A stretch of DNA of 23,639 nucleotides from a virus: IMG/VR virus record IMGVR_UViG_3300048838_000456, positions 1-23,639 of that record; one strand, 5' to 3'. Made by a program: the position numbers and the translations under genes. A model generated the notes under the pieces. The model did no database searches and had not been told where the DNA came from. It worked only from the letters and a program-made list of their open reading frames with translations. The first letter of the stretch is position 1, and each line of letters opens with the position of its first letter. Below, in pieces: positions 179 through 23,524 of this stretch.

Positions 179-982
179 ATGAATATCGGAAAGTACCTAA
201 AAATGTATTCCGATGATTTGCAGTTTGCAAATTATGCCGCGAATACAATCAAAAACTATACTTCACAAGTCGAATTATTTTTAAAATACTTCAACAACAA
301 AGCCACAAAACCCAGTGAAATAAACGAAAAAATGATTAAAGATTGGTTGATGCTATCAAAATCTACCAACAGTATGAAACACCGTATTTCAGCGGTAAAA
401 CTATTCTATGAATTAACTGGAAAACAACCGCTAAAATTCAAATACATAAAATACCCGCGTTCCGAAAAACATTTACCGAAGGTTATTGATTCAGAATATT
501 TGCTAAATAGAATATATAAAATTAAAAACATAAAACACAAAGCAATAATTATGCTTGCTTATTCCGTTGGCTTGCGGGTTTCAGAGGTAATTAACTTAAA
601 AATTACAGATATTGATTCAAAAAGAATGTTAATTTACATTAACCAGGCAAAAGGAAACAAAGATCGCATTGTCCCACTTTCTCAAAATGTGCTCGACGTT
701 TTGCGCCTGTATTACAAAAAAGAAAAGCCAACAGAATATTTATTTAACGGGCAATTCATTAAAAAATATTCTGCCGAAAGTTGCAATCAAATAGTGAAAA
801 AATATTTGGGCGAAGCTTATCATTTTCATTTACTACGCCATTCATCATTTACTACAATGCTCGAAAATGGGATTGATTTGCGCATAATTCAAAAAATTGC
901 AGGTCATAAAAACGTAAAAACAACCGAAATATACACACATGTTTCAAACAATCTTTTAAATAAAATTCAATTGCCAATATAA
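179..982 (+). CDS. XerC/D-like tyrosine recombinase (Rec1)
   Basis: This 267-residue protein has the two-domain layout of a simple tyrosine recombinase. A SAM-like core-binding domain spans about residues 1-85 and a catalytic domain about 105-260. The catalytic set is complete: Arg133 in GLRVSEV, a Lys near 158 (QAKGNKD), His217-x-x-Arg220 in HLLRH, His243 in AGHKN and nucleophile Tyr252 in EIYTHV. It should therefore be an active strand-exchange enzyme. It lies between the packaging end of the genome and the portal gene, an unusual place for a recombinase and far from the attachment site at 15556. It may be a second integration or resolution enzyme, a phase-variation invertase, or a cargo gene. 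The assignment to the superfamily is secure; its substrate is unknown. The start is the first ATG after the upstream stop. Confidence 0.9.
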   Translation: MNIGKYLKMYSDDLQFANYAANTIKNYTSQVELFLKYFNNKATKPSEINEKMIKDWLMLSKSTNSMKHRISAVKLFYELTGKQPLKFKYIKYPRSEKHLPKVIDSEYLLNRIYKIKNIKHKAIIMLAYSVGLRVSEVINLKITDIDSKRMLIYINQAKGNKDRIVPLSQNVLDVLRLYYKKEKPTEYLFNGQFIKKYSAESCNQIVKKYLGEAYHFHLLRHSSFTTMLENGIDLRIIQKIAGHKNVKTTEIYTHVSNNLLNKIQLPI

Positions 983-1002
983 ATAAATTAAACATTGTTG
1001 TA

Positions 1003-1033
1003 TTGCACCAATAAATAAAATCTATAATCTTTG
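1003..1033 (+). promoter_or_regulatory. possible late structural-operon promoter
   Basis: The 69-nt gap before the portal gene holds TTG (1003-1005) and, 19 nt later, TAATCTTTG (1025-1033). This resembles the Bacteroidota -33 TTTG / -7 TAnnTTTG promoter, with one extra base in the -7 box. The following bases include TACCTTACAT (1044-1053), identical to a stretch in the early operator at 18140-18149. The call is tentative because the -7 box is imperfect. Confidence 0.3.
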
Positions 1034-1051
1034 TAGGGTAAAATACCTTAC

Positions 1052-2260
1052 ATGAATTTTATTGACCGTACTATTCAACATTTTGCTAAAAAACGCGGCA
1101 TTTTCACAATGCCAATAAGCGAATATTCACGTTCATTTCAAAGCATTGAAAATTCATTAACTCCCGTAAACCATTCCAATGCACTAACCTTCACCGCCGC
1201 ATTTTCAGCCATTTCAACAAAGGCCGAAAACATGGCATCTATCCCAAAATCCGTTTTTAAAACAACACCAAAAGGCAAAATTACCGACAAAAACCACCCT
1301 GTTTATAATCTCATCCATTTTCGCCCAAATAACTACATGACCGATTTTTCATTTTGGGAAAAAATAGAATCCGATGTTGCAGGCTGGGGAAACAGTGTTG
1401 TAGTTATCGAATCCGATGCTAAAGGCTATCCCAAAAACCTTTGGCCCGTAGAACCCGACAATTACAGGATCATAAAACATAAACGCGAAATTTTTTACAA
1501 AATACCAAACGGCGAATTCTCAGGAACTTATCATAGTTCCGAAATCCTGCATTTTAAATTTTTTAGTATCGATGGATTAAACGGGATCGACCCAATTTCA
1601 TACAATGCCGTCGCCCTGGGTATCGGAATTTCAGGCCAAAACTTCGCCAGCGAATATTTTACAACAAAGGGTAAAATGCGCGGGGTTTTCGAAATGGATA
1701 GCGAACTCGGAGAGGAAGCATTTAACCGCCTAACTACACGCCTTGCAGCACAAAAAGACCATGCCACGCCAATTCTCGAACACGGTTTAAAATATAAAAA
1801 TATTTCCATTTCGCCCGATGCTGCTCAGGCTATCCAGTCCCGTGTTTTCAGTATTCAGGATGCTTCACGAATTTGGAAAGTACCCGTTTCTTTATTGGCC
1901 GAACATTCTCATTCAACATTTTCTAACACCGAACAGCAAGACATTCAATTTGTCAAGTACGGATTACGCCCCGAATGTAAACGCTTTGAAACCGAAATTG
2001 AAACAAAGCTTTTCCTGCCTGATGAACTCGAAATATATAACGTAAAATTCGATTTGCGCGGCCTCTTACGTGGCGATATTAAAACTCAGGCCGAATGGTA
2101 CCATAAAGCAATACTTGACGGATGGATGAGCCGCAACGAAGTACGGGAAATAGAAAACTTAAACCCACAGGAAGGACTTGATGAATACTTGGTCCCGGTT
2201 AACATGACATTGCCCGAAGCTTTGCAAAATGCAATTGATAACAATAAAAATCAGGAATAA
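1052..2260 (+). CDS. HK97-family portal protein
   Basis: This 402-residue protein would form the dodecameric ring at the capsid vertex through which DNA is packaged and to which the tail connects. Features typical of HK97-type portals are visible: an N-terminal segment followed by a conserved FSAISTKAENMASIP-like helix near residues 50-65; a DFSFWE...GWGNSVVVIE core near 95-125; a proline-rich LWPVEPDNYRI strand near 130-142; EILHFKFFSIDGLNGIDPI near 165-185; and the C-terminal VSLLAEHSHSTFSNTEQQ clip/stem region near 275-295. Length is normal for the family. The stop TAA overlaps the start ATG of the next gene (TAATG), indicating translational coupling to the protease. It is the first gene of the structural operon. 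Confidence 0.95.
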   Translation: MNFIDRTIQHFAKKRGIFTMPISEYSRSFQSIENSLTPVNHSNALTFTAAFSAISTKAENMASIPKSVFKTTPKGKITDKNHPVYNLIHFRPNNYMTDFSFWEKIESDVAGWGNSVVVIESDAKGYPKNLWPVEPDNYRIIKHKREIFYKIPNGEFSGTYHSSEILHFKFFSIDGLNGIDPISYNAVALGIGISGQNFASEYFTTKGKMRGVFEMDSELGEEAFNRLTTRLAAQKDHATPILEHGLKYKNISISPDAAQAIQSRVFSIQDASRIWKVPVSLLAEHSHSTFSNTEQQDIQFVKYGLRPECKRFETEIETKLFLPDELEIYNVKFDLRGLLRGDIKTQAEWYHKAILDGWMSRNEVREIENLNPQEGLDEYLVPVNMTLPEALQNAIDNNKNQE

Positions 2261-2937
2261 TGAAAAATACAAAATTTACAACCGGCACAATCCGCGCTTT
2301 CGACCGCAAAAAAGCCGAAGAAACCCGTACAATTGAATTCATAATTTCCGATGAAACCCGCGACCGACACGGTACCGTAATTCCAATCAATGCTTGGAAA
2401 ATCGACCGCTTCAACAATAACGGTATCGTAGGCTATCAACATGAAGTTAATGGAAGTTGGGGCGGGAATTCAAACCCCGATCAGGTCCTTGGAATTGGAT
2501 TTGTATTTGTTGAAGATGGTAAACTTATTGGCCGAGTAAATTTCGAACCTGTCGAAATAAACCCGCTTGCTGAAAAAATATTTCAAAAGGTCCTGCACGG
2601 AACTTTAAAAGCCACTTCAGTAGGTTTCATCGAAACCGAAAAAGGGAAATACGGCGAAAAAGCCGAAGCACGGGACGGCGAAAACCCTACTTATTATTTC
2701 AAATCGGTTGAGTTGTTGGAATTCAGTATAGTAAATATCCCATCAAACCCAAACGCTTTGCGCCGGTCCATCGAAACCGAAACCGATGAACCCGAAATTT
2801 CATCCCGCGATCTGGAAGAAACTCGCCAACAATTGGCAACTGCTCAAATGGAAATTGCAGCCCGTGATTTAACAATCGCAACGCTCAAACAAAATATTAA
2901 AATCGAGAAATTAAATAACGGCCTCAAAAGGTCATAA
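2260..2937 (+). CDS. prohead (capsid maturation) protease, HK97 / U35 family
   Basis: The 225-residue product is the serine protease that trims the capsid precursor during head maturation. The N-terminal strand pattern TIEFIISDETRDRHGTV, the catalytic His61 in GYQHEV, the Ser120 motif KATSVGF and the LLEFSIVNIPSNPNAL block near residues 151-166 are the hallmarks of this family. Residues from about 178 to the end are charged and helical (EETRQQLATAQMEIAARDL), probably a coiled scaffold tail. The gene overlaps the portal stop by one base and is followed 12 nt later by the capsid gene, the standard portal-protease-capsid order. Confidence 0.93.
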   Translation: MKNTKFTTGTIRAFDRKKAEETRTIEFIISDETRDRHGTVIPINAWKIDRFNNNGIVGYQHEVNGSWGGNSNPDQVLGIGFVFVEDGKLIGRVNFEPVEINPLAEKIFQKVLHGTLKATSVGFIETEKGKYGEKAEARDGENPTYYFKSVELLEFSIVNIPSNPNALRRSIETETDEPEISSRDLEETRQQLATAQMEIAARDLTIATLKQNIKIEKLNNGLKRS

Positions 2938-2949
2938 ATAAATTGTATT

Positions 2950-4224
2950 ATGAAAAAGTCAGATGAATTAAAACAAAAACTGGCAACTTTAGAGGCCGCA
3001 AATAAAGATTTGGTTTCTAAAGAAAGCCGCACCGTAGAAGAAAATACGGAAGTTGATAACTATATTTCAGCCCGTGAAGCATTACAGGCCGAAATAGAAC
3101 GCGAACTAAAATTGGAGCGCATTAACGCAGCCAATGCCGCCGCCGCCGGACAAAGCCAGTCCGAAAAAGAAACCCGCGAAATCGGTTCTTATTCTTTCCA
3201 CCGTGCTATAAAATTGCTGGGCGAAGGCCGCAATGTTGACGGTTTGGAGGGCGAAATGGCCCAGGAAGGCGCAAAAGAACGTACTTCTTTAGGTATTGCC
3301 ACAAAAGGTTTCGCAATTCCTTTAATGGTGTTGCAGGCTGGTAAACGTGCTTCAACAGGCCAAAACATAACAACCGCCGCCGATGGTGGTAACTGGGTAG
3401 ATACCGACCCTGTTGTATTTATCGAAGCCCTTAAAAATGCAATGGTTATCAATCAACTGGGCGCAACATTTTTAACCGGGTTGGTTGGAAATTTGCCGCT
3501 TGTTAAAAACGGCGCATTTTCTGCTTCTTGGATTGCTGAAGGTTCTGATGTTACAACCACAAAGGCTGCTTTGTCAAAAGCCACGTTAACACCTAAAAAC
3601 TTAATGGTTGCAGGTGCAATTTCAAAACAGTTATTGGTTCAAACTGCCGGGGTTGCTGAAACTTTGGTTCGTAACGAACTTATTGCAGCTATGGCGCAAG
3701 GTCTGCAATCTGCCGCTATCAATGGCGCGGGTGGTACTGCCCCAACAGGTATTTTAAACACTGTTGGTATTGGCGCTGTTGCTGGTGGAACAGATGGGCT
3801 TATCCCAACATGGGGGAATGTTGTTGACCTTGAATCTGAGGTTGCAATTGATAACGCCGTTTTTATGAATCCTGGCTACTTAACAAATGCCAAAGTTCGC
3901 GGAAAATTGAAACAAACTTTAAAAGCTAACGGCGTTTCCGGTTATATATGGGATGGCGAAGGCGTTAACGGATACAAAGCTCATGTTACAAACGGTGTTC
4001 CGTCAAACCTTGTAAAAGGCGGTTCAGGTGCAGTCTGTTCTGCAATCATTTTTGGTTATTTCAGCGAGTTGTTTATAGGTATGTGGGGCGGTCTCGACTT
4101 AGTGGTTGACCCTTACACGCTCAAAAAACGCAACGAACTGGAAATCGTTTTCAATCAGTTTGCCGATGTTGCACTTCGCAACCCCGAATCTTTCGCAGCA
4201 ATGAAAGATGCTTTAACTGTATAG
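2950..4224 (+). CDS. major capsid protein, HK97 fold
   Basis: This 424-residue protein has the two-part structure of a capsid precursor. Residues 1 to about 105 form a charged, helical delta (scaffold) domain that the upstream protease should remove. The rest matches the HK97 capsid domain, with WVDTDPVVFIEALKNAMV, LSKATLTPKNLMVAGAISKQLL, the GLQSAAINGAGGTAPTGIL loop, and the C-terminal FGYFSELFIGMWGGLDLVVDPYT and IVFNQFADVALRNPESFA blocks. The N-arm and E-loop should lie near residues 105-180. The gene ends in five consecutive in-frame stop codons and is followed by a strong hairpin, features not seen after the flanking genes. Confidence 0.94.
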   Translation: MKKSDELKQKLATLEAANKDLVSKESRTVEENTEVDNYISAREALQAEIERELKLERINAANAAAAGQSQSEKETREIGSYSFHRAIKLLGEGRNVDGLEGEMAQEGAKERTSLGIATKGFAIPLMVLQAGKRASTGQNITTAADGGNWVDTDPVVFIEALKNAMVINQLGATFLTGLVGNLPLVKNGAFSASWIAEGSDVTTTKAALSKATLTPKNLMVAGAISKQLLVQTAGVAETLVRNELIAAMAQGLQSAAINGAGGTAPTGILNTVGIGAVAGGTDGLIPTWGNVVDLESEVAIDNAVFMNPGYLTNAKVRGKLKQTLKANGVSGYIWDGEGVNGYKAHVTNGVPSNLVKGGSGAVCSAIIFGYFSELFIGMWGGLDLVVDPYTLKKRNELEIVFNQFADVALRNPESFAAMKDALTV

Positions 4225-4242
4225 TAGTAGTAGTAATACATA

Positions 4243-4279
4243 AAACTGAGCGGTTAAGTTCCACTTGACCGCTCAGTTT
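4243..4279 (+). terminator. strong hairpin after the capsid gene (3'-end stabiliser or terminator)
   Basis: A 16-bp stem (4243-4258 with 4264-4279, one G.T pair) closes a 5-nt loop. The stem core is AAACTGAGCGGT with ACCGCTCAGTTT. No U-tract follows (the next bases are AACACTTT), so it is not a textbook intrinsic terminator. It may instead cap and stabilise the capsid mRNA or partially attenuate transcription into the following genes. Confidence 0.7.
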
Positions 4280-4307
4280 AACACTTTACAATTCAATAAA
4301 ATCTAAT

Positions 4308-4610
4308 ATGAAAATTAAATTTTTAAAACCAGTTCAAGGCTTCGCATACTTCGAAAACGAAATTGCCGCCGATTTATCGGACGATGCCGCCGCTACATTG
4401 ATTTTACAAGGTTTTGCAATTATTATTCCCGATACCGAAGGAAATGAAAACAATTTACCTGAAGATCTACCGGCCCGTGAAATCCTTTTTAACGAAGGTT
4501 TGGAAACAATTGAAGATGTTCTCAATGCGCTTCCAACAATCGGAGATATTTCCGGAGTAAGCAAAAAGGATGCAAAAAAGCTGTTAACCTACTTTAGTAC
4601 CATAAAATAA
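4308..4610 (+). CDS. small capsid-adjacent protein with helix-hairpin-helix-like end
   Basis: This protein of 100 residues sits between the capsid and head-tail connector genes. Residues 1-45 (MKIKFLKPVQGF... DLSDDAAATLILQGFAI) resemble the small beta-rich domain often found after capsid genes in HK97-type phages. Residues about 60-100 (ILFNEGLETIEDVLNALPTI..ISGVSKKDAKKLLTYF) have the spacing of a helix-hairpin-helix/HeH module. It could be a minor head component or a DNA-end binding protein at the connector. The family is not identified with certainty. It is 1 nt from the next ATG, so the two genes are co-translated. Confidence 0.7.
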   Translation: MKIKFLKPVQGFAYFENEIAADLSDDAAATLILQGFAIIIPDTEGNENNLPEDLPAREILFNEGLETIEDVLNALPTIGDISGVSKKDAKKLLTYFSTIK

Positions 4611-4611
4611 A

Positions 4612-5172
4612 ATGGCAAACATAAAACTAATATCAGCGAAATCAACCGAAAGCCCGGTAACATTAACCGAGTTTAAAAATCATATCGGGTTCCCTGCTGC
4701 CGATGTTTCGCGTGATGCTGGTTTTACGCTTATACTGGAAGCCGCAACCGATGACGCGCAAAAATACACAGGCCGTCAATTCATGCTTTCTGATTATCAG
4801 TTGATTGAATCAGGGTTTAAATACAAATTTAAAATTCCTTTAAATCCTGTCTCAGAAGTTGCAAATATCATGTATTTCGATGAAACGAACCAGGAACAAA
4901 CTCTGGATTCATCAAAATACATGGTCAACTTATTTACCGAACCAGTTGAAATTGAAATAATAAACGCCCCTTCAGTTTATACCGAAAGGGTTGATGTTGT
5001 TAAAGTAAATTTTAAAGCGGGTTATGCCGCAGCGGCAAATGTTCCTGCTGCAATAAAGGCCGCAATATTATTAAGTGCCGCCGATTTATATGTAAATCCG
5101 TCCGATGCTGTTCGAACAATGCCAACAGCTTCGCGCAATTTATTAAGAAATTATAGGCTGTTTCAGCCTTAA
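4612..5172 (+). CDS. gp6-like head-tail connector (adaptor) protein
   Basis: The 186-residue protein carries the pattern of the phage gp6-like connector family: LTEFKNHIGFPAADVSRDAGFTLILEAATDDAQKYTGRQF near residues 18-58, followed by a beta-rich middle (PLNPVSEVANIMYFDE) and a C-terminal helix (AAIKAAILLSAADLYVNPSDA). These adaptors dock under the portal and form the first ring of the neck. The position directly after the capsid cluster fits. Length is somewhat above the minimum for the family because of the beta-rich middle. The last residues include FQP just before the stop. Confidence 0.85.
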   Translation: MANIKLISAKSTESPVTLTEFKNHIGFPAADVSRDAGFTLILEAATDDAQKYTGRQFMLSDYQLIESGFKYKFKIPLNPVSEVANIMYFDETNQEQTLDSSKYMVNLFTEPVEIEIINAPSVYTERVDVVKVNFKAGYAAAANVPAAIKAAILLSAADLYVNPSDAVRTMPTASRNLLRNYRLFQP

Positions 5173-5232
5173 GATAGTTTGATTTTTGGGATTTGTTTTT
5201 TTAGGTTTAGGTGTGTTAGTTTATTAGAAATC

Positions 5233-5268
5233 GAAAGGGCGAAAGCCGCCGCCGCCGCCCTTTCTTTT
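5233..5268 (+). terminator. rho-independent terminator-like hairpin
   Basis: GAAAGGGCG (5233-5241) pairs perfectly with CGCCCTTTC (5256-5264), and TTTTT follows at 5265-5269. An inner GGC-GAAA-GCC tetraloop is an alternative fold. The hairpin lies in the 107-nt gap between the connector and head-closure genes. Because the downstream genes are also structural, it would act as a partial terminator or processing point within the operon. Confidence 0.65.
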
Positions 5269-5279
5269 TAAAATGTAAA

Positions 5280-5612
5280 ATGAAAAAAGAGTTTATAAAT
5301 ATTGGCGATTTTAACGAACAAATAATCTGGATGCAACCTGTTGCCGCCAAAGATTCATTTGGCCAATCAAAACGCACATTTACACCATTCAAAACTACAT
5401 GGGCCAATGTTCAGCCCGTTTCAGTTGGCGAAACCGAAATGTCCAACCGCCTGCAATATGCCGAAACGTACAGTTTTACAACGCATTTTGATAGCGCAAT
5501 AAACAACACTTTTCAACTCACATACAATGCCGAACAATACAATATCAGCCGAATTGAAAAACTGAATCTTAGCCGATTTATTCGTGTAACCGCTTCAAAA
5601 ATTGTTGAATAA
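5280..5612 (+). CDS. head closure / head-tail joining protein
   Basis: This is a 110-residue beta-barrel-type protein of the phage head-tail joining family (SPP1 gp16-like). It opens with INIGDFNEQIIWMQPVAAKDSFGQ and continues with KTTWANVQPVSVGETEMSNRLQYAETYSFTTHF and a C-terminal YNISRIEKLNLSRFIRVTASKIVE, a typical arrangement for these proteins. It would plug the neck after DNA packaging. Its stop TAA overlaps the ATG of the next gene by one base (TAATG). The start follows a hairpin and a short AT-rich leader. Confidence 0.85.
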   Translation: MKKEFINIGDFNEQIIWMQPVAAKDSFGQSKRTFTPFKTTWANVQPVSVGETEMSNRLQYAETYSFTTHFDSAINNTFQLTYNAEQYNISRIEKLNLSRFIRVTASKIVE

Positions 5613-6444: not shown

Positions 6445-6456
6445 AAATAAAAGATT

Positions 6457-6876: not shown

Positions 6877-6877
6877 T

Positions 6878-6913
6878 AAATACCATTTTCCTGTTGCCGG
6901 GAAAATGGTATTT
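6878..6913 (+). terminator. perfect 14-bp hairpin after the major tail gene
   Basis: AAATACCATTTTCC (6878-6891) pairs perfectly with GGAAAATGGTATTT (6900-6913) around the 8-nt loop TGTTGCCG. No U-tract follows (AAGTAAAC). The structure begins one base inside the second of two tandem TAA stops. As after the capsid gene, it probably stabilises or partly terminates a highly expressed mRNA. Confidence 0.7.
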
Positions 6914-15481: not shown

Positions 15482-15503
15482 GTTTATAAATAGTTTATAA
15501 ATG
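15482..15503 (+). repeat. attachment-site arm repeat, left copy
   Basis: A 22-bp direct repeat made of two GTTTATAAAT units separated by one A and ending in G. An identical copy lies at 15713-15734, on the other side of the tRNA fragment. Such paired repeats flanking a core are the usual arm-type binding sites of a tyrosine integrase. A shorter variant, AGTTATAAAT, is at 15540-15549. Confidence 0.7.
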
Positions 15504-15691: not shown

Positions 15692-15713
15692 GTGTATATA
15701 TACACTATATTTG
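15692..15713 (+). promoter_or_regulatory. integrase promoter with 14-bp palindromic operator
   Basis: GTGTATATATACAC (15692-15705) is a perfect 14-bp palindrome directly followed by TATATTTG (15706-15713), a full match to the Bacteroidota TAnnTTTG -7 box. No clear -33 box is seen. The last base of the -7 box is the first base of the right arm repeat. Protein bound at the palindrome or at the arm repeat would therefore compete with RNA polymerase, suggesting autoregulation of the integrase. Confidence 0.5.
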
Positions 15714-15734
15714 TTTATAAATAGTTTATAAATG
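15713..15734 (+). repeat. attachment-site arm repeat, right copy
   Basis: Identical over 22 bp, and in the same orientation, to 15482-15503. It ends 7 nt before the integrase ATG at 15742, so it lies within the leader of the integrase mRNA and immediately downstream of its probable -7 box. Confidence 0.7.
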
Positions 15735-15741: not shown

Positions 15742-17064
15742 ATGGCAAACTTTAAATCTGTTATTCTAAAGGGGGAAATTCACACAAAAGCGGACAAAAC
15801 TACGAACATTAAAATCAGGATTACGCACAATAGAAAGGTTAATTATATATCTACCGATCTATATGTTCTGCCTGGTAATTTCGACACGAAAACAGGGCTT
15901 GTAAAAATAGGTCCAAACCGCGAACATATAAACCTCACGCTTGCTAAAATGCTTTTCGATTACCAGCGAAAATGCTTGGAGTTTGGCGAAACGCTGAATT
16001 CATTGTCTGTTGCCGAATTAAAAGAACTGGTTCAATCTAAAAAAACAAAAATAACAACCATTGATTTTTTTGATTATGCCGAAATATTGATAAATAAAAC
16101 CAATAGCATAGGCACTGCCCAACAATACAAGGCACTCAGTAATAGTTTAAAATCGTTTGTTTCGGGTAGATTGCCATTTTCGGCCATCAACTTAAATTTC
16201 TTGCTCAATTATGAAATTTACTTGAAGAACCGGGGCACAAAAAATGGTATTATCAACTACATGCGAACGTTTAGGGCCATTTTTAATAAAGCGCGGGATT
16301 TTTATAACGATGAAGATAGGGATATTATAAAAATAGCAAATTACCCATTCAAAAAATACAAATTTCCGAAACGAAAGGTAAAAAGTAACGATCATGTTTT
16401 AACTATTGACGAGTTGAAAATGTTTATAAATTATAAACACACAAACCCCGATGAACTTTTTGCAAAAGATATGTTTTTACTTATGTTTTATTTAATAGGT
16501 ATCGAATCGAAAGATTTGTTTCATTTACAAAAACCACGATCGGGCCGGGTAAATTATACAAGGTTTAAAACCGGGCGTAATTTGTCGGTAAAGCTGGAAC
16601 CCGAAGCCATTGAAATAATTAACCGATATAAAGGAAAAATTAACTTGCTGAATGTAAGTGAAAGGTTCAGCCTGAATAAAAGTTTTTACCGTTGTGTAAA
16701 CAATTATTTGCAGGGCGAAAAATCGCACCATATAACAGGTATTTTTGAACGCCTGGGGATAAACAAACCAGTTACAACAAAATGGGCGCGGCACACATGG
16801 GCCACAATTGCACGTAATGAATGCCGGATTAATAAAAGCGATGTAGCTTTATGTTTAGGCCACGAAGACGAAGGAAACCATGTTACGGATATTTATGTGA
16901 AATATGATTATTCGATAATTGACGAAAGCAACCGGAAAGTAATTGATTATTTATACGCCAAATATGAGCCACAAAATAAGCATGAAACCCAAAATGATAA
17001 CTATAACAACACCGCTGCCGCTTCGGTAATAGTTGCGCCACGGTTTATATTCACTCAAAACTGA
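15742..17064 (+). CDS. phage integrase (Bacteroidota-type tyrosine recombinase)
   Basis: This 440-residue protein has three parts: an N-terminal arm-binding domain of short strands (about 1-100, starting MANFKSVILKGEIHTKADKTTNIKIRITHN), a SAM-like core-binding domain (about 105-205) and a catalytic domain (about 215-410). Visible catalytic residues are Lys277 (RFKTGR), Arg350 (KWARHTWAT), His374 (LCLGHED) and nucleophile Tyr385 (DIYVKYD). The usual first Arg is not obvious in YLIGIESKDLF (250-260), and the usual His of HxxR is Lys347; both are, to my knowledge, common in this Bacteroidota subfamily. It should integrate the phage at tRNA-Trp through the core at 15556-15606 and the arm repeats. 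Its 3' end overlaps the reverse-strand gene by 14 nt. Confidence 0.92.
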   Translation: MANFKSVILKGEIHTKADKTTNIKIRITHNRKVNYISTDLYVLPGNFDTKTGLVKIGPNREHINLTLAKMLFDYQRKCLEFGETLNSLSVAELKELVQSKKTKITTIDFFDYAEILINKTNSIGTAQQYKALSNSLKSFVSGRLPFSAINLNFLLNYEIYLKNRGTKNGIINYMRTFRAIFNKARDFYNDEDRDIIKIANYPFKKYKFPKRKVKSNDHVLTIDELKMFINYKHTNPDELFAKDMFLLMFYLIGIESKDLFHLQKPRSGRVNYTRFKTGRNLSVKLEPEAIEIINRYKGKINLLNVSERFSLNKSFYRCVNNYLQGEKSHHITGIFERLGINKPVTTKWARHTWATIARNECRINKSDVALCLGHEDEGNHVTDIYVKYDYSIIDESNRKVIDYLYAKYEPQNKHETQNDNYNNTAAASVIVAPRFIFTQN

Positions 17065-17509: not shown

Positions 17510-17567
17510 TTTGGTGTAGTGTTATCGGTGTGTAAAACTATGTTAATTGTGCAATTTTTAATAATAG

Positions 17568-17628
17568 TTGTTTGTTTTTTTAAGTTACGGCCTACTTGTT
17601 TGTTTTTTCTTCCACTGGCTTGTTTGTT
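17568..17628 (-). repeat. three TTGTTTGTT repeats upstream of the secreted protein gene
   Basis: TTGTTTGTT occurs at 17568-17576, 17596-17604 and 17620-17628, spaced 28 and 24 nt. The last two share a 10-bp core, CTTGTTTGTT. They lie in the 196-nt gap between the repressor and secreted-protein genes and may be binding sites in the promoter of the latter. The motif is T-rich, so chance or low-complexity bias is a fair alternative. Confidence 0.4.
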
Positions 17629-17705
17629 CGATTTCATTACATGGGTTTGTTAATGTTTTAGTGCTGTAAACTAAAACAAAAAACCATTTAGAATCAAACC
17701 AAATA

Positions 17706-18083: not shown

Positions 18084-18111
18084 AATATAAATATTATTGA
18101 ATGTAAATAAT

Positions 18112-18152
18112 AAGGTAAATAGCCGTACATAAGGATATTTACCTTACATTTG
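18112..18152 (+). promoter_or_regulatory. divergent early promoter with palindromic operator
   Basis: AAGGTAAATA (18112-18121) and TATTTACCTT (18136-18145) form a perfect 10-bp inverted repeat with a 14-nt spacer. The right half runs into TACATTTG (18145-18152), a full match to the TAnnTTTG -7 box, 34 nt before the first early gene. Dimeric repressor bound to the two halves would block this promoter. No clear -33 box is seen. A second copy of the GTAAATA half-motif at about 18103 may be another site. Confidence 0.65.
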
Positions 18153-18186
18153 CATAGTTCTTATAACAAAAGTAGAATAAAAACAC

Positions 18187-18438
18187 ATGAATACAAATAC
18201 CGAAAAAACGTTACAAAATTTCTCGAAAGCCTATGCCGGGTTTCACCCCGTTGTGAGGAAAGAAATTTACAGCAAAATAATTGCCTGGACTGAATGGAGC
18301 AAGCTAACATTCTACAACAAAAAAAACGGTGTTAGGCCATTGCGCCCACTCGAACACGGTATTGTTGAACAGATTTTTTTGGATTATGGTGTTTGTGCAT
18401 GGACTGGGGAAGAAGTTACTGAACCGATAAACCTATAA
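18187..18438 (+). CDS. small conserved-looking phage protein, first early gene
   Basis: The 83-residue protein has no recognised domain. It is rich in Trp/aromatic residues and contains EIYSKIIAWTEWSKLTFYNKKNGVRPLRPLEHGIVEQIFLDYG, a mixed helical segment. The basic patch KKNGVRPLRP is striking. It is the first rightward gene after the divergent promoter, where Cro-like or antirepressor proteins sit in other phages, but nothing in it resembles an HTH. The next gene starts 4 nt after its stop, so they are co-translated. Confidence 0.65.
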   Translation: MNTNTEKTLQNFSKAYAGFHPVVRKEIYSKIIAWTEWSKLTFYNKKNGVRPLRPLEHGIVEQIFLDYGVCAWTGEEVTEPINL

Positions 18439-18441
18439 CCA

Positions 18442-18831
18442 ATGAACCTACACGTAACACCACGCGAAACGCAAGTTATGGAGCTTATCAGCTTCGGGAA
18501 TAGCCAAAAAGAAATAGCCGATATTTTGCATTGCTCGGTTAATACTATTGATGTGCATGTGAAAAACATAAAGCACAAAACAGGGCTTCAAAAAGCAACA
18601 GAAATAAGTTGTGCGTATATGTTTAACCGCTACCATTTACCAATGTGCGATTTGCCCGAAGGTGTTCGCAGGGCTATTGCTGTTGCACTGTTGTCGTTAA
18701 GTGTTTTTTCGATTACGCTGCACACTACCGATTTTATTAGGGTTATGAGGCCAGCCGCGCGCAGTGCTTCGCGTGGTGCCAATGGTAGAACCGGAAAGCG
18801 GGATTCGATTAACTATTTAAACGTTGCCTAA
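18442..18831 (+). CDS. LuxR-type HTH regulator with a C-terminal hydrophobic segment
   Basis: Residues 5-62 match the LuxR/GerE HTH: VTPRETQVMELISFGNSQKEIADILHCSVNTIDVHVKNIKHKTGLQKATEI. No receiver or autoinducer domain precedes it. Residues about 78-95 (AIAVALLSLSVFSITLHT) are hydrophobic enough for one membrane segment, followed by an Arg-rich tail (RVMRPAARSASRGANGRTGKR). The layout suggests a membrane-tethered or oligomerising transcription factor. Its position second in the early operon suggests it activates later phage genes. The start follows the previous stop by 4 nt; its stop overlaps the next possible start (TAATG). Confidence 0.8.
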   Translation: MNLHVTPRETQVMELISFGNSQKEIADILHCSVNTIDVHVKNIKHKTGLQKATEISCAYMFNRYHLPMCDLPEGVRRAIAVALLSLSVFSITLHTTDFIRVMRPAARSASRGANGRTGKRDSINYLNVA

Positions 18832-18998
18832 TGAAACAAATCCTATCCATATTATTCATTTCGGCCTTGTATGTTGCAATTTTCAATGAAGATTATTTGT
18901 GGGCCAAAAACCTTAAATTATGGTTAAAAAAGAGCTTGTTAAAAACACAATGTTTAACCCGGATGAAGTTGAAAAACACGACCGAAAAAAACAATTAA
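18831..18998 (+). CDS. short membrane peptide (55 residues)
   Basis: An ATG overlapping the preceding stop by one base opens a 55-codon frame starting MKQILSILFISALYVAIFNEDYLW, with one hydrophobic segment at the start followed by a basic tail. The overlap style is that of its neighbours. A different frame (18920-19072, 50 codons, MVKKELVKNTMFNPDEVEK...) covers the same DNA and is a competing possibility; the two cannot be ranked with certainty. Confidence 0.4.
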   Translation: MKQILSILFISALYVAIFNEDYLWAKNLKLWLKKSLLKTQCLTRMKLKNTTEKNN

Positions 18999-19001
18999 AA
19001 A

Positions 19002-19277
19002 ATGTTGTACCAATTCAATCAAATACAGTTGAGCGAACTGTTGACCACTGCCGCAAAAATGGGTGCCAGTAACTTTGCAGTTGAACAGGGGCTTGTTAAA
19101 ACAAAAATAAACAAAGCCGAAAGTTACAGAAGATATACACGCTCGTTGGTTGACAAATGGATAAAACATGGCAAAATTAAAGCGGTTAAAATTGATGGTA
19201 AATCAATGTTTGATGTTAAAGAGTTGGAAGAAATCAGTTCGGTTAATAAGTTGTTGAACCACTTTGTAAACATTTAA
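19002..19277 (+). CDS. putative excisionase-like / small DNA-binding protein
   Basis: This 91-residue protein contains ELLTTAAKMGASNFAVEQGLVKTKINKAESYRRYTRSLVDKWIKHGKIKAVKIDGKSMFDVKELEEI. Residues about 30-80 follow the order of a MerR/Xis-type winged helix: a recognition helix (YTRSLVDKWIKHGKI) and a two-strand wing (KAVKIDGKSMFDVKEL). It is not followed by a repressor gene, and lies in the early operon. An excisionase or an early transcription factor are the leading ideas. It overlaps the 3' part of the competing small frame upstream. Confidence 0.6.
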   Translation: MLYQFNQIQLSELLTTAAKMGASNFAVEQGLVKTKINKAESYRRYTRSLVDKWIKHGKIKAVKIDGKSMFDVKELEEISSVNKLLNHFVNI

Positions 19278-19289
19278 AAAACATAATAT

Positions 19290-19374
19290 ATGGCGGTTTC
19301 CGGTAATTTTCTGAGTAGTTTATATTGATTTGATTGATTGATTTTAAGTTAAAGTTCACAGCCGGTGCCGCCAT
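19290..19374 (+). other. long-range inverted repeat in a non-coding gap
   Basis: In the 122-nt gap before the next gene, ATGGCGG (19290-19296) can pair with CCGCCAT (19368-19374), and CCGG (19300-19303) with CCGG (19362-19365). The enclosed 58-nt loop contains GATT repeats. This may be a structured mRNA leader or a replication-related site; function is unknown. Confidence 0.35.
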
Positions 19375-19399
19375 TAAAAAACATTTTAAGATTAAGATT

Positions 19400-19606
19400 A
19401 TGAAAACACAAAAACAACAAGATTTATTTGAAAAATGCTGGATGCGGTTTTTTACAACGCTATTTTCAATGGTTTCGCTATTGTCGTTTGTAGGCGGTTG
19501 TTGTGGTGCAACATGGCATTTTTACACAGCTTTTTTAAGCGCATTGCTTGCATTTATTGTTTATTACGCAACAATTGCCACACCTTCAAAAAACTTATTG
19601 CAATGA
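19400..19606 (+). CDS. small membrane protein
   Basis: From the ATG at 19400, a 68-residue protein reads MKTQKQQDLFEKCWMRFF and then two hydrophobic segments (about residues 17-34 and 43-60: SMVSLLSFVGGCCGATW and FLSALLAFIVYYATIA). A longer frame from an upstream alternative start exists, but its first 22 residues are poor sequence. No family is recognised. The gene is followed with a 4-nt ATGA overlap by the DnaA-like gene, so it is part of the early operon. Confidence 0.6.
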   Translation: MKTQKQQDLFEKCWMRFFTTLFSMVSLLSFVGGCCGATWHFYTAFLSALLAFIVYYATIATPSKNLLQ

Positions 19607-19938
19607 ATTATATGATATTACCAGGTGTTGAAAAAACCTCAAAAATGGATAATCTGAAAAGAAATATGAATTCGGTATTGAATGAAGTTTGCGAGCTTTA
19701 CAATACACAGCCAATTGCTGTTTTAAACAGCACAAAAAAGAGGGATAGAAACCTCGTTTTAAGCCGACAAATTACTATGTATTTAACCCGAAAAAGGTTT
19801 AAATTAACATATAGTCTTTCCGAAATTGGAGGATATTTTAAAAAAGACCATTCAACAGTTTTACACTCCATTAGGGCTATTGATAATTTACTTGAAACAG
19901 ACAGGGATTTCAGAATAAAAATGAATCATTTAGTATAA
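19603..19938 (+). CDS. stand-alone DnaA domain IV-like DNA-binding protein
   Basis: Residues about 45-100 read RDRNLVLSRQITMYLTRKRFKLTYSLSEIGGYFKKDHSTVLHSIRAIDNLLE. This is the DnaA domain IV pattern, including the signature KDHSTVLHS that recognises the DnaA box. The ATPase domain is missing, so it cannot be a full initiator. The gene uses the ATG at 19603 (111 residues); the longer open frame reaching back to 19435 overlaps the real upstream gene in another frame. It may help phage replication by binding DnaA boxes or compete with host DnaA at oriC. It sits next to SSB-like and initiator-like genes. Confidence 0.85.
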   Translation: MNYMILPGVEKTSKMDNLKRNMNSVLNEVCELYNTQPIAVLNSTKKRDRNLVLSRQITMYLTRKRFKLTYSLSEIGGYFKKDHSTVLHSIRAIDNLLETDRDFRIKMNHLV

Positions 19939-19958
19939 ATTTCACTTAAAAAAACAAC

Positions 19959-20258
19959 ATGAAAGAAGGTAAAAGACGAACCATGTCGATATGCTTGACC
20001 GACATAAAAAACTTAGCAGCCGATAAAATTGTGAAAGCCGGAAACGGCAAACTGTATATCAATATCGAAACATACGATAAAGATGAACCGGACAAATATG
20101 ACAATGATTTCAGTGTTTCGGTTTGCCGCTCAAAAGAAGAAACCGAAAGGATTAAAGCAGGCGAAAAGTTAGACCGTGTATTTATAGGTAACGGTAGAAT
20201 TTGGGAACCACAACAACAGGAAGCCAGCCCAGCCGAAGTTAACGACTTACCGTTTTAG
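19959..20258 (+). CDS. SSB-like phage protein
   Basis: The 99-residue protein has a short OB-like core (ICLTDIKNLAADKIVKAGNGKLYINIETYDKD..., FSVSVCRSKEE..., DRVFIGNGRIWEP) and ends in the acidic-then-hydrophobic tail EVNDLPF. That ending matches the SSB C-terminal motif that recruits replication and repair proteins. This, and the location between a DnaA-like gene and a replication-initiator-like gene, suggests single-strand DNA binding. An internal start at residue 9 (MSICLTD) may be the real one. The core is smaller than a classical SSB. Confidence 0.6.
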   Translation: MKEGKRRTMSICLTDIKNLAADKIVKAGNGKLYINIETYDKDEPDKYDNDFSVSVCRSKEETERIKAGEKLDRVFIGNGRIWEPQQQEASPAEVNDLPF

Positions 20259-20260
20259 TA

Positions 20261-20458
20261 GTGAAAGCCTGGTACAATTCAGAAACACGCTTCAAAAACA
20301 AAATTATGAAAGACTGGAACAAAAGAGGGATTAAATACAATGCCGGAAATGTAAATATTTTACGGTATGCTTTCAGAACTCTTTTGTTTTGGTCAACCAT
20401 AAAAGGACAAAAAATGTCAAAAATAAACAAGGTAGAAATTCATCCAAAATTATTTTAA
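20261..20458 (+). CDS. small basic protein
   Basis: An open frame begins with GTG at 20261 (65 residues) or ATG at 20306 (50 residues, MKDWNKRGIKYNAGNVNILRYAF...). It is basic and has no recognised domain. It lies one codon after the SSB-like gene and one base before the next small gene, which favours a real gene in the operon; the start is uncertain. Confidence 0.45.
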   Translation: MKAWYNSETRFKNKIMKDWNKRGIKYNAGNVNILRYAFRTLLFWSTIKGQKMSKINKVEIHPKLF

Positions 20459-20569
20459 ATGAAACGAGCGTGTAAAAACTGCCTGAAAGTTAAAGGATGC
20501 ACACAAAAGTATTATTTCGAGAAACAAGAAATTTTAACATGCCCCAATTTTAGAAAGAAAACAAAATGA
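20459..20569 (+). CDS. 36-residue four-cysteine mini-protein
   Basis: ATG at 20459 opens MKRACKNCLKVKGCTQKYYF, with Cys at 5, 8, 14 and 28 (CxxC...C...C). This could bind one zinc ion. It starts one base after the previous stop and overlaps the next gene by 4 nt (ATGA), the coupling seen throughout this operon. It is shorter than most gene callers keep. Confidence 0.5.
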   Translation: MKRACKNCLKVKGCTQKYYFEKQEILTCPNFRKKTK

Positions 20570-20769
20570 ATAAAAAATCATCTACCCGAATTATAACCAG
20601 TTCAAAAAAATATGAAATGTTTGATAGTGGCCGTTTTAATACAAATTTTCCAAAAGATTATAATTTTTTGATTGGAATGTGCGAAGGAATAAAAGCATCA
20701 AAGGTTTCAAAAATTAATATTGAACAGAATGTTTCGAAAATTAACGGAATGACTATAATACCGAATTAA
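20566..20769 (+). CDS. small hypothetical protein
   Basis: The 67-residue protein (KKSSTRIITSSKKYEMFDSGRFNTNFPKDYNFLIGMCEGIKASKVSKINIEQNVSKING) is basic and serine-rich at the start. No family is recognised. It overlaps the preceding mini-protein by 4 nt and is followed 1 nt later by the replication-initiator-like gene. Confidence 0.6.
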   Translation: MNKKSSTRIITSSKKYEMFDSGRFNTNFPKDYNFLIGMCEGIKASKVSKINIEQNVSKINGMTIIPN

Positions 20770-20770
20770 C

Positions 20771-21478
20771 ATGGCAAAAAGGTATACCGATACAAATAAA
20801 TACAAAAAACCATTTATAAGGGGTTTGCAAGGGGCTTATAAATTGTTTTGGGATTACCTGTATCACGATTGCGATCATGCCGGGATTTGGATAGTTGATT
20901 TTGATATAGCTCAAATTTATATTGGTGCCGATATGAAGATAAATAAAGCCGATGCACTGAAATTTTTTAACCAAAACGAAACCCGGATTATTGAGTTTGA
21001 TAACGAACAAAAGTGGTTTATAAAACCTTTCATCGATTTTCAGTATGGAGAGTTGAATCCTGCAAATCGTGTTCATAACTCAGTTCTTTCAGTGTTATTA
21101 TCAAATAATTTAATCGAAAAAAATAAGGGTCTTGGAAGCCCCTTAGAAGGGGCTAAAGATAAAGATAAAGATAAAGATAAAGACAAGGATAAAGATATTC
21201 TTAAAAGAAGGGAAAAAATCAAATTTTCAGATTTGGAAAATACGCAGTGGTTTGAGTCGATTTTAAGGTTCTTAAAATTGCAAATTAACTACGATGAATT
21301 AATGGAATATTGGAAGCAATATCAGGAAGCAATGACAGCCGATGACGACTTGAACAGGGATGCTAACGATTATCGCGCTCACTTTAGAAATTGGGTAAAA
21401 ATTCAGGTCGAAAAAAAAGGCTATCAAAATCAATCCACTTTTAAGAAACCTAATTACGAACTTTTAAAAATGATTTGA
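20771..21478 (+). CDS. replication-initiator-like protein with KD-repeat linker
   Basis: This 235-residue protein has an N-terminal globular domain (KPFIRGLQGAYKLFWDYLYHDCDHAGIWIVDFDIAQIYIGADMKINKADALKFFNQNETRI..., residues about 12-110). A flexible linker (about 120-142) with seven tandem KD units follows, then a C-terminal helical domain with LMEYWKQYQEAMTADDDLNRDANDYRAHFRNWVKI, which fits the DnaD/phage-replisome C-terminal domain. The layout recalls replisome organisers such as phage O-type and DnaD-like proteins. Winged-helix DNA binding of the N-terminal domain is inferred, not seen. It overlaps the next gene by 4 nt (ATGA-type), suggesting the two work together. Confidence 0.7.
   Translation: MAKRYTDTNKYKKPFIRGLQGAYKLFWDYLYHDCDHAGIWIVDFDIAQIYIGADMKINKADALKFFNQNETRIIEFDNEQKWFIKPFIDFQYGELNPANRVHNSVLSVLLSNNLIEKNKGLGSPLEGAKDKDKDKDKDKDKDILKRREKIKFSDLENTQWFESILRFLKLQINYDELMEYWKQYQEAMTADDDLNRDANDYRAHFRNWVKIQVEKKGYQNQSTFKKPNYELLKMI
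21155..21196 (+). repeat. seven 6-bp tandem repeats (AAAGAT type) within the initiator-like gene
   Basis: Seven consecutive units, AAAGAT with single-base variants (AAAGAC, AAGGAT), encode the KD linker. A GCCCCT/AGGGGC hairpin at 21138-21153 lies directly upstream. In lambda the origin lies inside the O gene in a repeat-rich linker, so this is a candidate origin; the repeat may equally be only a coding linker. Confidence 0.75.
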
Positions 21479-22068
21479 TTATGAAATATGAGGATATAAA
21501 ACACATGAGGATTTCAGATTTGAATGAAGATGATTTTAAAATCTGGATTATGGATGAATTAACCGATTTGATGAATGATTGCGGCCAAAAAATTGATAAC
21601 GATATGTTAATTCATTCAGTTCGTAGGTTGCGCGGGGTTTTATTCTTGGGAAAATACCGGAGTTGGTATGTTGGCGATGTGCATGCTACTTTTCAGGTTG
21701 GTTTGTCGGGTGCTTACGGAATGTTTACAAAAGTTACTGTTAAATCATTGTTGCAATTTCTGAACCAGGCTCAACGGCAATTAACAAACAAAAACGTTAA
21801 CAAAGCCGAAGAAGAAAGCGATCGCAAAAATGCCGCCTTTAGCCCGCGCATTACGTTTGTTTCCGACTTTATTATTTGGGCCACAACAAACCAAATTTGT
21901 TTGGAGTATTTAAACCCAGGTTATAACCCGATGGTAGAAAGAAAGGTATCAAAAGAAGTTGAAGCAATGGCCGATGATTATCATACTGCAAAGGATTTAG
22001 GGGTTTTGCACTCTTTCAAAAACAGGATTAAAAATGATTCAATGGCTTATTTCGAAAAAATAAAATAG
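21475..22068 (+). CDS. hypothetical protein, possible replication partner
   Basis: This 197-residue protein is a mixed alpha/beta type: DLNEDDFKIWIMDELTDLMNDCGQKIDNDMLIHSVRRLRGVLFLGKYRSWYVGDVHATFQVGLSGAYGMFTKVTVKSLLQFLNQAQ. I do not recognise its family. It starts inside the end of the initiator-like gene (4-nt overlap). It is followed 2 nt later by a small zinc-knuckle gene. Given this coupling it could load helicase or act with the initiator, but that is context only. Confidence 0.65.
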   Translation: MIMKYEDIKHMRISDLNEDDFKIWIMDELTDLMNDCGQKIDNDMLIHSVRRLRGVLFLGKYRSWYVGDVHATFQVGLSGAYGMFTKVTVKSLLQFLNQAQRQLTNKNVNKAEEESDRKNAAFSPRITFVSDFIIWATTNQICLEYLNPGYNPMVERKVSKEVEAMADDYHTAKDLGVLHSFKNRIKNDSMAYFEKIK

Positions 22069-22070
22069 CC

Positions 22071-22289
22071 ATGACCGATAGCGAAGCCAAAAGCATTTTT
22101 AAAGAAATGAAACGCATACTTTGCCCAGGTTGCAAAGGCGAAAAGGTGCAAATGTACCTTGATAAATGGGACGAACGTGAAGAAAGAACATGCCACGTTT
22201 GCGATGGCGAAGGAATTGTTTTTGAAATTACCGAAAAACTAATAAAGAAAATTAACAATGGCAGAAAAAACAGGGAGTTGCAGCCGTAA
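22071..22289 (+). CDS. DnaJ-type zinc-knuckle small protein
   Basis: The 72-residue protein contains CPGCKGEK (C18, C21) and CHVCDGEG (C41, C44), two CxxCxGxx knuckles of the DnaJ central zinc-finger kind that bind one zinc. It has no J domain. It starts 2 nt after the previous stop and overlaps the HNH gene by 32 nt. It may be a protein-interaction or nucleic-acid-binding adaptor. Confidence 0.75.
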   Translation: MTDSEAKSIFKEMKRILCPGCKGEKVQMYLDKWDEREERTCHVCDGEGIVFEITEKLIKKINNGRKNRELQP

Positions 22290-22596
22290 TTATGCCCCAA
22301 AAACAACCACAACCGGGCAAAAAATGGAGAGCCGGGAGCGGTCGCGCAAAGAATACCATACAAACCGATGGACGGTTATTAGTAAGAAATTCAGGGAATC
22401 GCACCCGCTTTGCCAAAGGTGTTTGGATTCGGGTATTGTTACACCTTCTGAAGTAACAGACCATATTGTCCCGGTTGAAATACATGGTAAGTTTTGGGAT
22501 AGGTTTAACTACCAGGCACTTTGTAAACGTTGCAATATTGCTAAGGGAAATGAAGATAAAACAAAAATAAATGAACACAGAAAAGCCGTTAAATAG
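22258..22596 (+). CDS. HNH endonuclease (packaging-type)
   Basis: This 112-residue protein carries the phage HNH pattern: HPLCQRC (C52, C55), VTDHIVPV (D68, H69), NYQALCKRCNIAKG (C89, C92, N93, K97). The two CxxC pairs hold zinc and the His/Asn residues form the active site. Such HNH genes sit directly before terminase small subunit genes in many HK97-like phages and assist cos cleavage. Here a tyrosine recombinase gene follows instead, its start lying inside the HNH 3' end (22571 versus stop 22596). The ATG at 22258 gives a 32-nt overlap with the upstream gene. Confidence 0.9.
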   Translation: MAEKTGSCSRNYAPKTTTTGQKMESRERSRKEYHTNRWTVISKKFRESHPLCQRCLDSGIVTPSEVTDHIVPVEIHGKFWDRFNYQALCKRCNIAKGNEDKTKINEHRKAVK

Positions 22597-23524
22597 ATTG
22601 ATTACTGATTACGTTGAACAACTGGACTGCAAAGAGTACGTTCAAAAAAATACACTATGGGTATTGCAAAGGTTTGTAAAATGGATGACAATTAACAGAG
22701 TTAACATATCGGAACCACGCCGCGCTGATATTATCCACTACAAAAACACAATTACAAGCGAAGGGAAAACTCCTACTACATTGAACCGTTATATGTCGCC
22801 TGTTCGTGGGTTCTTTCGCTATCTCGAAAAAGAAAACATTTATAGCGACATTGCCGTCGGTATCAAAACACCTGACGACCAAAGGCGAGTAAGAAAAGAA
22901 TATTTAAAACCTGAACAAATTATTCAATTACTTGAATCTATACCTACTACAACAGTAACCGGATTACGCGATTACGCAATGATTAACCTTATGGTTTGTT
23001 TAGGGTTGCGCCGTGTTGAAATATTGCGCTTAACAGTTGCAGACCTTTGCACTGAATCAAATGGATATTCTCTTAATGTTTGGCGCAAAGGCAAAAACTA
23101 CAAAGAGAAAATTAAAATTGAATCAGAACTATTTGAACCAATTGAAAACTATTTATTGAAGCGTGAATCATTTTCAGATAGTTCAGCACTGTTTGGAAAT
23201 CACGGGCCGCACTCAAAGCAATCTATCAACCTTGACACATTGAGTTTGATAGTTAAAAAATATTTGAAACTGATAAATGATTCGAAGAAATTAACATGCC
23301 ACTCATTGAGGCACTCAGCCGCAATCAACCTGTTAAATTCAGGCAGTTCGATTTATGATGTTAAGGACATGTTAGGCCATAGTACAACGAAATCAACAGA
23401 AATCTATTTAAAGGCCATAGAGGCAGAAAGAAGGTTTAATAGTCCAGCTGTTAACCAATTAATAAAACTATACAGAAATAGGACAAGAATACCCAATAAA
23501 GACCAAATAATAGCTGTTGATTGA
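22571..23524 (+). CDS. XerC/D-like tyrosine recombinase (Rec3)
   Basis: This 317-residue protein has a SAM-like core-binding domain (about 1-90) and a catalytic domain (about 110-300). All catalytic residues are visible: Arg147 (LGLRRVEI), a Lys near 173-175 (RKGKN), His244 and Arg247 (CHSLRHSA), His270 (MLGHST) and Tyr279 (EIYLKA). It differs clearly in sequence from both other recombinases in this window. It starts within the 3' end of the HNH gene and occupies the place of a terminase small subunit. That is unusual for a phage already carrying an integrase at 15742. Role unknown: dimer resolution, cos-adjacent recombination or inversion are possible. Confidence 0.9.
   Translation: MNTEKPLNRLITDYVEQLDCKEYVQKNTLWVLQRFVKWMTINRVNISEPRRADIIHYKNTITSEGKTPTTLNRYMSPVRGFFRYLEKENIYSDIAVGIKTPDDQRRVRKEYLKPEQIIQLLESIPTTTVTGLRDYAMINLMVCLGLRRVEILRLTVADLCTESNGYSLNVWRKGKNYKEKIKIESELFEPIENYLLKRESFSDSSALFGNHGPHSKQSINLDTLSLIVKKYLKLINDSKKLTCHSLRHSAAINLLNSGSSIYDVKDMLGHSTTKSTEIYLKAIEAERRFNSPAVNQLIKLYRNRTRIPNKDQIIAVD

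Follow-up and report, generated by a model that had tools for sequence, protein, structure and literature searches.

The Rec1 locus and its cassette array

The window analyzed here is the whole 23,639-nucleotide (nt) record IMGVR_UViG_3300048838_000456 of the IMG/VR database, which carries genes for a portal protein, a prohead protease, and an HK97-type major capsid protein and, as judged from its relatives, probably derives from a Bacteroidota phage. A preliminary description of this DNA had reported three distinct tyrosine recombinases, and the open reading frames (ORFs) and domain matches bore this out: Rec1 (positions 179 to 982), Rec2 (15742 to 17064), and Rec3 (22571 to 23524) scored 130, 20, and 93 bits against PF00589 (cut-off 27.1, with Rec2 under it), and Arm-DNA-bind_5 and Phage_int_SAM_5 were both above cut-off in Rec2. 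Rec1, the main subject here, is very probably the enzyme that recombines gene cassettes in an integron-like system carried by the phage.

The DNA preceding Rec1 is available from a contig of another sample (L004), which is 99.98% identical to the window over 5448 nt (one mismatch; L004:1344 equals window position 1) and extends it leftward by 1343 nt, consisting of short genes split by long inverted repeats. Three attC-like sites were detected there (L004:310-433, 746-871, and 1101-1226), whereas among 1,000 dinucleotide shuffles of 1.5 kb of L004, 999 contained no site and one contained a single site. The last cassette, with the box pair GTTAACGGTAGT / ATTACCGTTAAC, ends at L004:1469, i.e., window position 126, beside Rec1. 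The preliminary description had considered that Rec1 might be a lone insertion without target repeats; such repeats exist just outside the window. The features at the left end of the window are as follows, a slash marking the cassette boundary:

1..113, plus strand: 3' end of the last cassette gene, which starts left of the window and ends at L004:1456
112..126, plus strand: R''-type box closing the last cassette, AGCATTACCGTTAAC, which is complementary to the box that opens it at L004:1223-1237 (inverted repeat I5)
123..178, plus strand: attI-like site and leader, TAAC/TACTATATGTA..., conserved beside the recombinase
179..982, plus strand: Rec1, a putative cassette recombinase of 267 amino acids, an XerA-like tyrosine recombinase without the integron-integrase insertion
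1052..2260, plus strand: portal protein, directly 3' of Rec1, as originally described

The boundary next to Rec1 is conserved in an otherwise different phage contig of 43 kb (L005), in which cassette-like repeats precede a recombinase 82% identical to Rec1; the DNA shared with the window (BLASTN, 75%) runs from position 123 to 942, a stretch with the TAAC core, the leader, and the larger part of Rec1. A motif of the leader, YAAC-N3-9-TATAT, TATGT, or TATAG, was present in 58 of 69 leaders versus 88 of 2536 random segments, and its TAAC is also the point where sister phages diverge. In form, this attI-like site corresponds to the attI site found beside the recombinase gene of integrons.

To survey the Rec1 family, IMG/VR was scanned with a Rec1 alignment, and the best 80 of 84 loci were combined with those of phages Ingeline, Leef, and Freya_10 into a set of 83. 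Removing ten near-copies left 73 loci, with L071/L072, L060/L079, and L043/L045 as residual near-copies and none of the trio L098-L100 kept. The 144,705 nt of DNA upstream of the recombinase contained 125 sites, and none was detected in the 172,982 nt downstream or in dinucleotide-shuffled upstream DNA; at least one site was present in 46 of the 56 loci with at least 1.5 kb of upstream DNA. When the ten near-copies were included and a cruder block shuffle was used, the 83 loci gave 129 sites upstream, 0 downstream, and 1 in shuffled DNA. Site lengths (n = 162) peaked at 80 to 95 and 115 to 132 nt. The L004 site at 746-871 matched at least five other loci over ~126 nt at 75 to 87% identity, and unrelated arrays can have only the site in common.

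Within an integron cassette, the R' and R'' boxes agree with each other, since both derive from one circular site. As the sites had been detected by arm complementarity, this property was examined in place of arm covariation, using four bases outside the cores that the site detector does not use. All four bases matched in 92 of 140 box pairs of the same cassette versus 20 of 446 pairs drawn from other cassettes of the same array (Fisher P = 4e-51, with rows not independent), and in 4 of 156 comparisons between the two ends of one site. The sites are thus palindromic, carry YAAC...GTTR cores, and match in their boxes within the cassette, as attC sites do.

The cassettes lie in tandem upstream of Rec1 and on its strand. 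In the sense of the gene, each unit comprises a spacer of ~5 nt, an arm, a loop often holding a start codon, the complementary arm, 0 to 3 nt, GTTRNNN, the gene, and NNNYAAC, and the same order (spacer, arm, loop, arm, GTTR, gene, YAAC/) was read from the junctions of Freya and of L034/L036 (see below). The site therefore travels at the 5' end of its gene, and the layout mirrors that of a classical cassette. Of 156 sites, 73 contain an ATG that begins a read-through ORF of at least 40 codons, with GTT as an in-frame codon in 53 of these 73 (binomial P = 8e-12, with homologous sites not independent); the resulting site-encoded N-termini include PQLNIGAV and LHISDV. The first ORF of at least 40 codons begins after the site in 81 of the 156, and no such ORF was found for 2 of them. 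Rec1 would recombine the cassette core YAAC/ (/GTTR on the other strand) either with the core of another cassette or with the fixed attI-like site TAAC/TACTATATGTA before its own gene, and whole genes would leave the array in circular form or enter it at the end nearest Rec1. By analogy with integrons, the substrate would be a folded single strand.

A Pfam search of 143 cassette ORFs gave 14 member matches, namely, 11 to DNA-methyltransferase families, one to Lar (restriction alleviation), and two to domains of unknown function. Among the best 25 of 49 families, PHROGs matches were mainly DNA methyltransferases, together with a few others such as helicase (4 members), membrane protein, and phosphoheptose isomerase; among the best 25 of 80 families, PADLOC returned methyltransferase models. 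Most cassettes had no recognized function, and most of the few recognizable genes look like tools against bacterial restriction. The benefit of the system may lie in the exchange of anti-restriction and other accessory genes.

As the preliminary description had claimed, the catalytic residues of Rec1 are complete: R133, K158, H217, R220, H243, and Y252, the RKHRHY set of the tyrosine recombinase superfamily, are invariant in 42 aligned family sequences. Its best score among the 14 models listed was to XerA (NF040815; 181 bits, below the cut-off of 220), and the XerC and XerD equivalogs (159 and 156 bits; cut-offs 335 and 330) were likewise below cut-off. The integron integrase model TIGR02249 gave 125 bits against a cut-off of 265, as two stretches with a profile gap. 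The alignment to VchIntIA (PDB 2a3v) skips residues 178 to 265 of IntI against 176 to 215 of Rec1, and VchIntIA has ~48 residues more between the two aligned stretches, so that the additional domain of IntI-type integrases was not found in Rec1; this comparison relies on the NCBIfam model and 2a3v, and the tree described next was built without IntI sequences. In a Foldseek search with an AlphaFold2 model (mean predicted local distance difference test score, 91), XerA (5hxy) came first by E value, and IntI (2a3v) had the highest query TM-score (0.79) among the best 50 matches. In a tree of 143 rows, a clade of 65 (Shimodaira-Hasegawa-like approximate likelihood ratio test, 99) united 62 of the 70 phage Rec1-type rows, including Rec1, with three loci from metagenome-assembled genomes. 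Outside it fell the site-bearing phage rows L090, L049, L082, L084, L094, L097, and Leef, as well as L102; a second group (support 85) held most Bacteroidota chromosomal relatives together with L094, L097, and Leef. The most likely role of Rec1 is that of an integron recombinase carried by phages, despite a score below the integron-integrase cut-off and the missing insertion.

Array variants in sister phages

Natural variants were found in Polaribacter phages Freya_1 to Freya_10, which carry a Rec1 relative (35% identity). Seven isolates (1, 2, 5, 6, 8, 9, and 10) showed seven array states on a backbone of 43,925 nt, in which types 1, 2, 5, 6, 8, and 9 had 0, 4, 0, 1, 0, and 0 mismatches to Freya_10; the array parts of Freya_3 and Freya_4 equal that of Freya_2, and that of Freya_7 equals that of Freya_6. 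Compared with Freya_10, whole units were absent in types 1, 2, 5, 8, and 9, with every junction at AAC, and Freya_6 had an extra unit of ~470 nt, also with junctions at AAC, which could be a gain in Freya_6 or a loss in Freya_5. No source of this extra cassette was found, as only Freya_6 and Freya_7 hold it whole among the phage records and an IMG/VR scan with its 71-amino-acid ORF confirmed no relative. Freya arrays were also joined at the attI-like motif. Moreover, in the metagenomic sister sets L034/L035/L036/L037, L043/L045, and L047/L048, whose recombinases are 98.9 to 100% identical, identity ends 0 to 2 nt before a TAAC; the pair L053/L054 was uninformative.

Such shuffling could in principle result from homologous recombination between repeated sites, driven by phage RecT or host RecA and requiring no site-specific enzyme, considering that the sites recur at 75 to 87% identity between arrays and that Freya carries RecT. 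However, where both joined partners can be read in Freya_10, they have only AAC or CAAC in common at the junction, which is too little for homologous recombination, and the attI-like partner resembles the sites in the core only. The metagenomic sets lose identity just before TAAC as well, with the donor not seen there. Homologous recombination as the cause of the array changes is thus largely refuted by the AAC/CAAC junctions, and we regard it as extremely improbable.

Several observations weigh against a resident Rec1 as the driver of the arrays. In Danklef (L193-L197), the sister species of Freya, the recombinase gene retains just its 3' 466 nt (as read in D1, the same region being at least 99.9% identical in the other isolates), and yet a 777-nt methyltransferase unit is present in D1 and D5 and absent in D2 to D4, with a TAAC junction; either an enzyme acting in trans or a loss before the truncation must be assumed, and this variation speaks against simple dependence on the resident recombinase gene. 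G012, the closest relative of the window, has a site and cassette genes without Rec1, and the sole mismatch between L004 and the window creates an in-frame TAG at codon 10 of the L004 Rec1 copy (L004:1522-1551). The site detector was built on L004 and L005; no site was detected in 10 of the 56 loci with enough upstream DNA, including Cellulophaga phage Ingeline (L014), in which the recombinase gene, as read in L014, is full-length and whose eight records differ in length by at most 4 nt, and the Freya sites scored below those of most arrays.

An enzyme supplied in trans could be a host integron integrase that moves the array as an attC cluster, with Rec1 an unrelated XerC-like protein serving dimer resolution or integration. 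Phage attC clusters without an integrase have been published: according to Qi et al. (2023; PMC9892861), a few temperate phages carry integrons with IntI-type integrases and 17 others carry integrase-less clusters, and IntI1 recombined five of the six phage sites assayed, including one of the two from Polaribacter phage P12002L. We found several sites of the same shape around DNA methylase genes of P12002L (L285; ~32223-40949, minus strand), at a lowered threshold with some background matches elsewhere in the genome and with the match to the published P12002L_attC2 unproven, and no Rec1 relative in that phage; G012 and the variable arrays of Danklef would fit a host enzyme as well. Nevertheless, sites lie upstream in 46 of 56 Rec1-family loci with none found downstream, and the attI-like motif of 58 of 69 leaders is itself the divergence point of sister phages and the joining point in Freya. 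In addition, a search of 11 Bacteroidota genomes that encode chromosomal relatives of Rec1, the phage hosts not being among them, gave no IntI scoring over the TIGR02249 cut-off. A host integrase as the sole agent therefore appears improbable, and Rec1 itself is the better candidate for performing the cassette recombination.

Rec2, Rec3, and the packaging segment

The remaining features of the window concern ordinary integration and the genome end:

15482..15503: left copy of a direct repeat of 22 nt, upstream of Rec2 (self-BLAST)
15713..15734: right copy of this repeat, immediately before Rec2 (self-BLAST)
15742..17064, plus strand: Rec2, a phage integrase with an arm-binding domain (Arm-DNA-bind_5, Phage_int_SAM_5)
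22258..22596, plus strand: HNH endonuclease, adjoining the probable cohesive (cos) end
22571..23524, plus strand: Rec3, an XerD-like recombinase, by PF00589, family models, and relatives
23590..23639, plus strand: conserved G-rich stretch GGGGGATAGGGGGTAAAATCTCT...CCAAGAC, the probable right cos end of virion DNA

Rec2 looks like an ordinary phage integrase. The 22-nt repeat beside it is perfect and is the sole repeat pair that a self-BLAST covering both strands of the window returned; its copies are possibly arm sites or part of attP, outside the cassette system. With its domains and this repeat, Rec2 can account for integration. A role for Rec1 as the lysogeny integrase was rejected, as Rec1 has 267 amino acids without an arm domain and the only repeat pair found in the window adjoins Rec2.

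Rec3 lies right after the HNH gene, as first described, and the two ORFs overlap by 26 nt. It shares ~23 to 31% identity with Rec1-family genes, and Rec1, Rec2, and Rec3 differ in their best family models, so that the earlier statement that Rec1 and Rec3 are not copies of each other stands. No terminase gene was recognized in the window or in the 1343 nt that L004 adds to its left, and the preliminary description had placed the missing terminase segment between Rec3 and Rec1. Synteny agrees. G012, also the closest syntenic relative (amino acid identity of 71% for the portal and 62% for Rec3), has the order small terminase subunit (TerS), large terminase subunit (TerL), other genes, methyltransferase cassette genes with one site, portal ... 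HNH, Rec3, end, and its homology to the window resumes at position 976, directly at the end of Rec1. A methyltransferase-domain gene and other accessory genes were also observed between TerL and the cassettes of G012 (L281:3301-3900). The order is TerL, small genes, Rec1, portal in L031, in which no attC-like site was detected, and Rec3, TerS, TerL, portal in L209. Queries with the terminases of three phages placed the start of a terminase homolog 189 to 559 nt past Rec3 in L204, L205, L207, and L234 and at most 2.6 kb downstream of a Rec3 relative in 19 of 60 loci with enough DNA; a position of Rec3 just before the terminase genes is thus a trait of the nearer relatives and does not extend to the full Rec3 hit list. 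By synteny with G012, L031, and L209, rather than by reading of this genome, Rec1 and Rec3 flank in circular order the segment in which relatives carry TerS-TerL.

The right end of the window is probably a physical cos end and not a random break, because G012 (L201 end) finishes at the homologous base, both with CCAAGAC after the conserved G-rich stretch; no exact match to this end was found in IMG/VR. The G-rich stretch (GGGGGG..AATCTCT..) lies between Rec3 and the terminase genes, and a similar stretch runs on toward TerS in L207, L209, and L234. The likely genome order is cos - TerS - TerL - array - Rec1 - portal ... Rec2 ... HNH - Rec3 - cos.

This arrangement had suggested that Rec1 and Rec3 act together on the packaging segment, by inversion or by resolution of genome dimers. 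Besides the flanking positions, both enzymes resemble Xer proteins, and the Rec1 gene is directly followed by a Rec3 relative in L071 (L071:1817-2728) and L072, forming a two-recombinase operon; this adjacency is the only tie of Rec3 to cassettes. Against joint action, attC-like sites go with Rec1 and none was found at Rec3 on either strand of the window, and G012 keeps Rec3 without Rec1. As for inversion, the portal gene and Rec3 share a strand in 9 of 9 records and the self-BLAST, a comparison within the window, showed only the Rec2 pair, so that inversion of the packaging module by Rec1 was discarded. We therefore consider an action of Rec1 and Rec3 on the packaging segment highly unlikely. 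Of the roles proposed earlier for Rec1, module exchange came nearest to the cassette system described here, and inversion and dimer resolution found no support. Rec3 alone may resolve circular genome dimers, which is a guess.

Relation to known recombination systems

Taken together, Bacteroidota phages probably carry an integron class of their own, with a non-IntI recombinase lineage, mirrored cassettes that often have a start codon inside the site (so that the protein begins with residues encoded by the site, for example PQLNIGAV), and a fast-turnover pool rich in anti-restriction methyltransferases that differs between nearly identical isolates. The Rec1 system resembles the gene shuffling of bacterial integrons, but its enzyme is outside the integron-integrase family, and shuffling is its most likely function as far as sequences can tell. 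If so, these phages own a dedicated device for swapping counter-defense genes, which would explain few-kilobase differences at one spot between isolates of one phage and would provide a candidate recombinase for the integrase-less attC clusters known from phages. Moreover, a question of integron origin becomes testable, namely, whether recombination of cassettes through folded sites can do without the domain specific to IntI. An "integrase" annotation in such phages also need not imply lysogeny: the integrase of Freya (44.0 to 48.9 kb) was read as a sign of a possibly temperate life (Bartlau et al. 2021; PMC8776804), in a paper whose main text contains neither "integron" nor "cassette."

Neither the phage system nor chromosomal arrays with non-IntI recombinases were found described in our searches of the open-access literature. 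The phage integrons of Qi et al. (PMC9892861) are similar in having attC sites and methyltransferase cassettes in phages, one of them a Polaribacter phage, but the part of that paper available to us does not mention a non-IntI recombinase, its attI-like site, or variation from isolate to isolate. Bacteroidota are listed among the phyla with integrons in the accessible part of another study (PMC8618304).

Chromosomal recombinases with arrays, including those of Flavobacteriaceae, are also related. In Bacteroidota chromosomes, attC-like sites were observed downstream of non-IntI recombinases of 316 to 402 amino acids (L106, L108, L111-L117, L119-L121, L124, L135, L154, and L161), and the enzymes of all but the last three of these loci, with 316 to 401 amino acids, are related to Rec1 at 42 to 46% identity. 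They share the site shape of the Rec1 system but differ in an N-terminal extension, a downstream array, and classical gene-then-site cassettes (read in L119, seven sites). XerA (4a8e, 5hxy) and XerC/XerD provide the best sequence matches of Rec1, and XerA also the best Foldseek E value, but these proteins resolve dimers at a single dif site, and we know of no cassette arrays associated with them.

The likeness to class 1 and sedentary chromosomal integrons extends to tandem cassettes, palindromic sites of the form R''/L''-loop-L'/R' with GTTR/YAAC cores, complementary R' and R'' boxes within a cassette, an attI-like site at the recombinase gene, and junctions that fit an exchange at G/TT (AA/C). 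In classical integrons, the integrase gene is divergent from the array and attC stands at the 3' end of each cassette gene. The Rec1 system, in contrast, is phage-borne, its recombinase gene is codirectional with the array and located 3' of it, and its mirrored cassettes carry the site at the 5' end of the gene, with the ORF start within the site in about half of the cases; its enzyme stays under the TIGR02249 cut-off and lacks the ~48-residue excess of VchIntIA.

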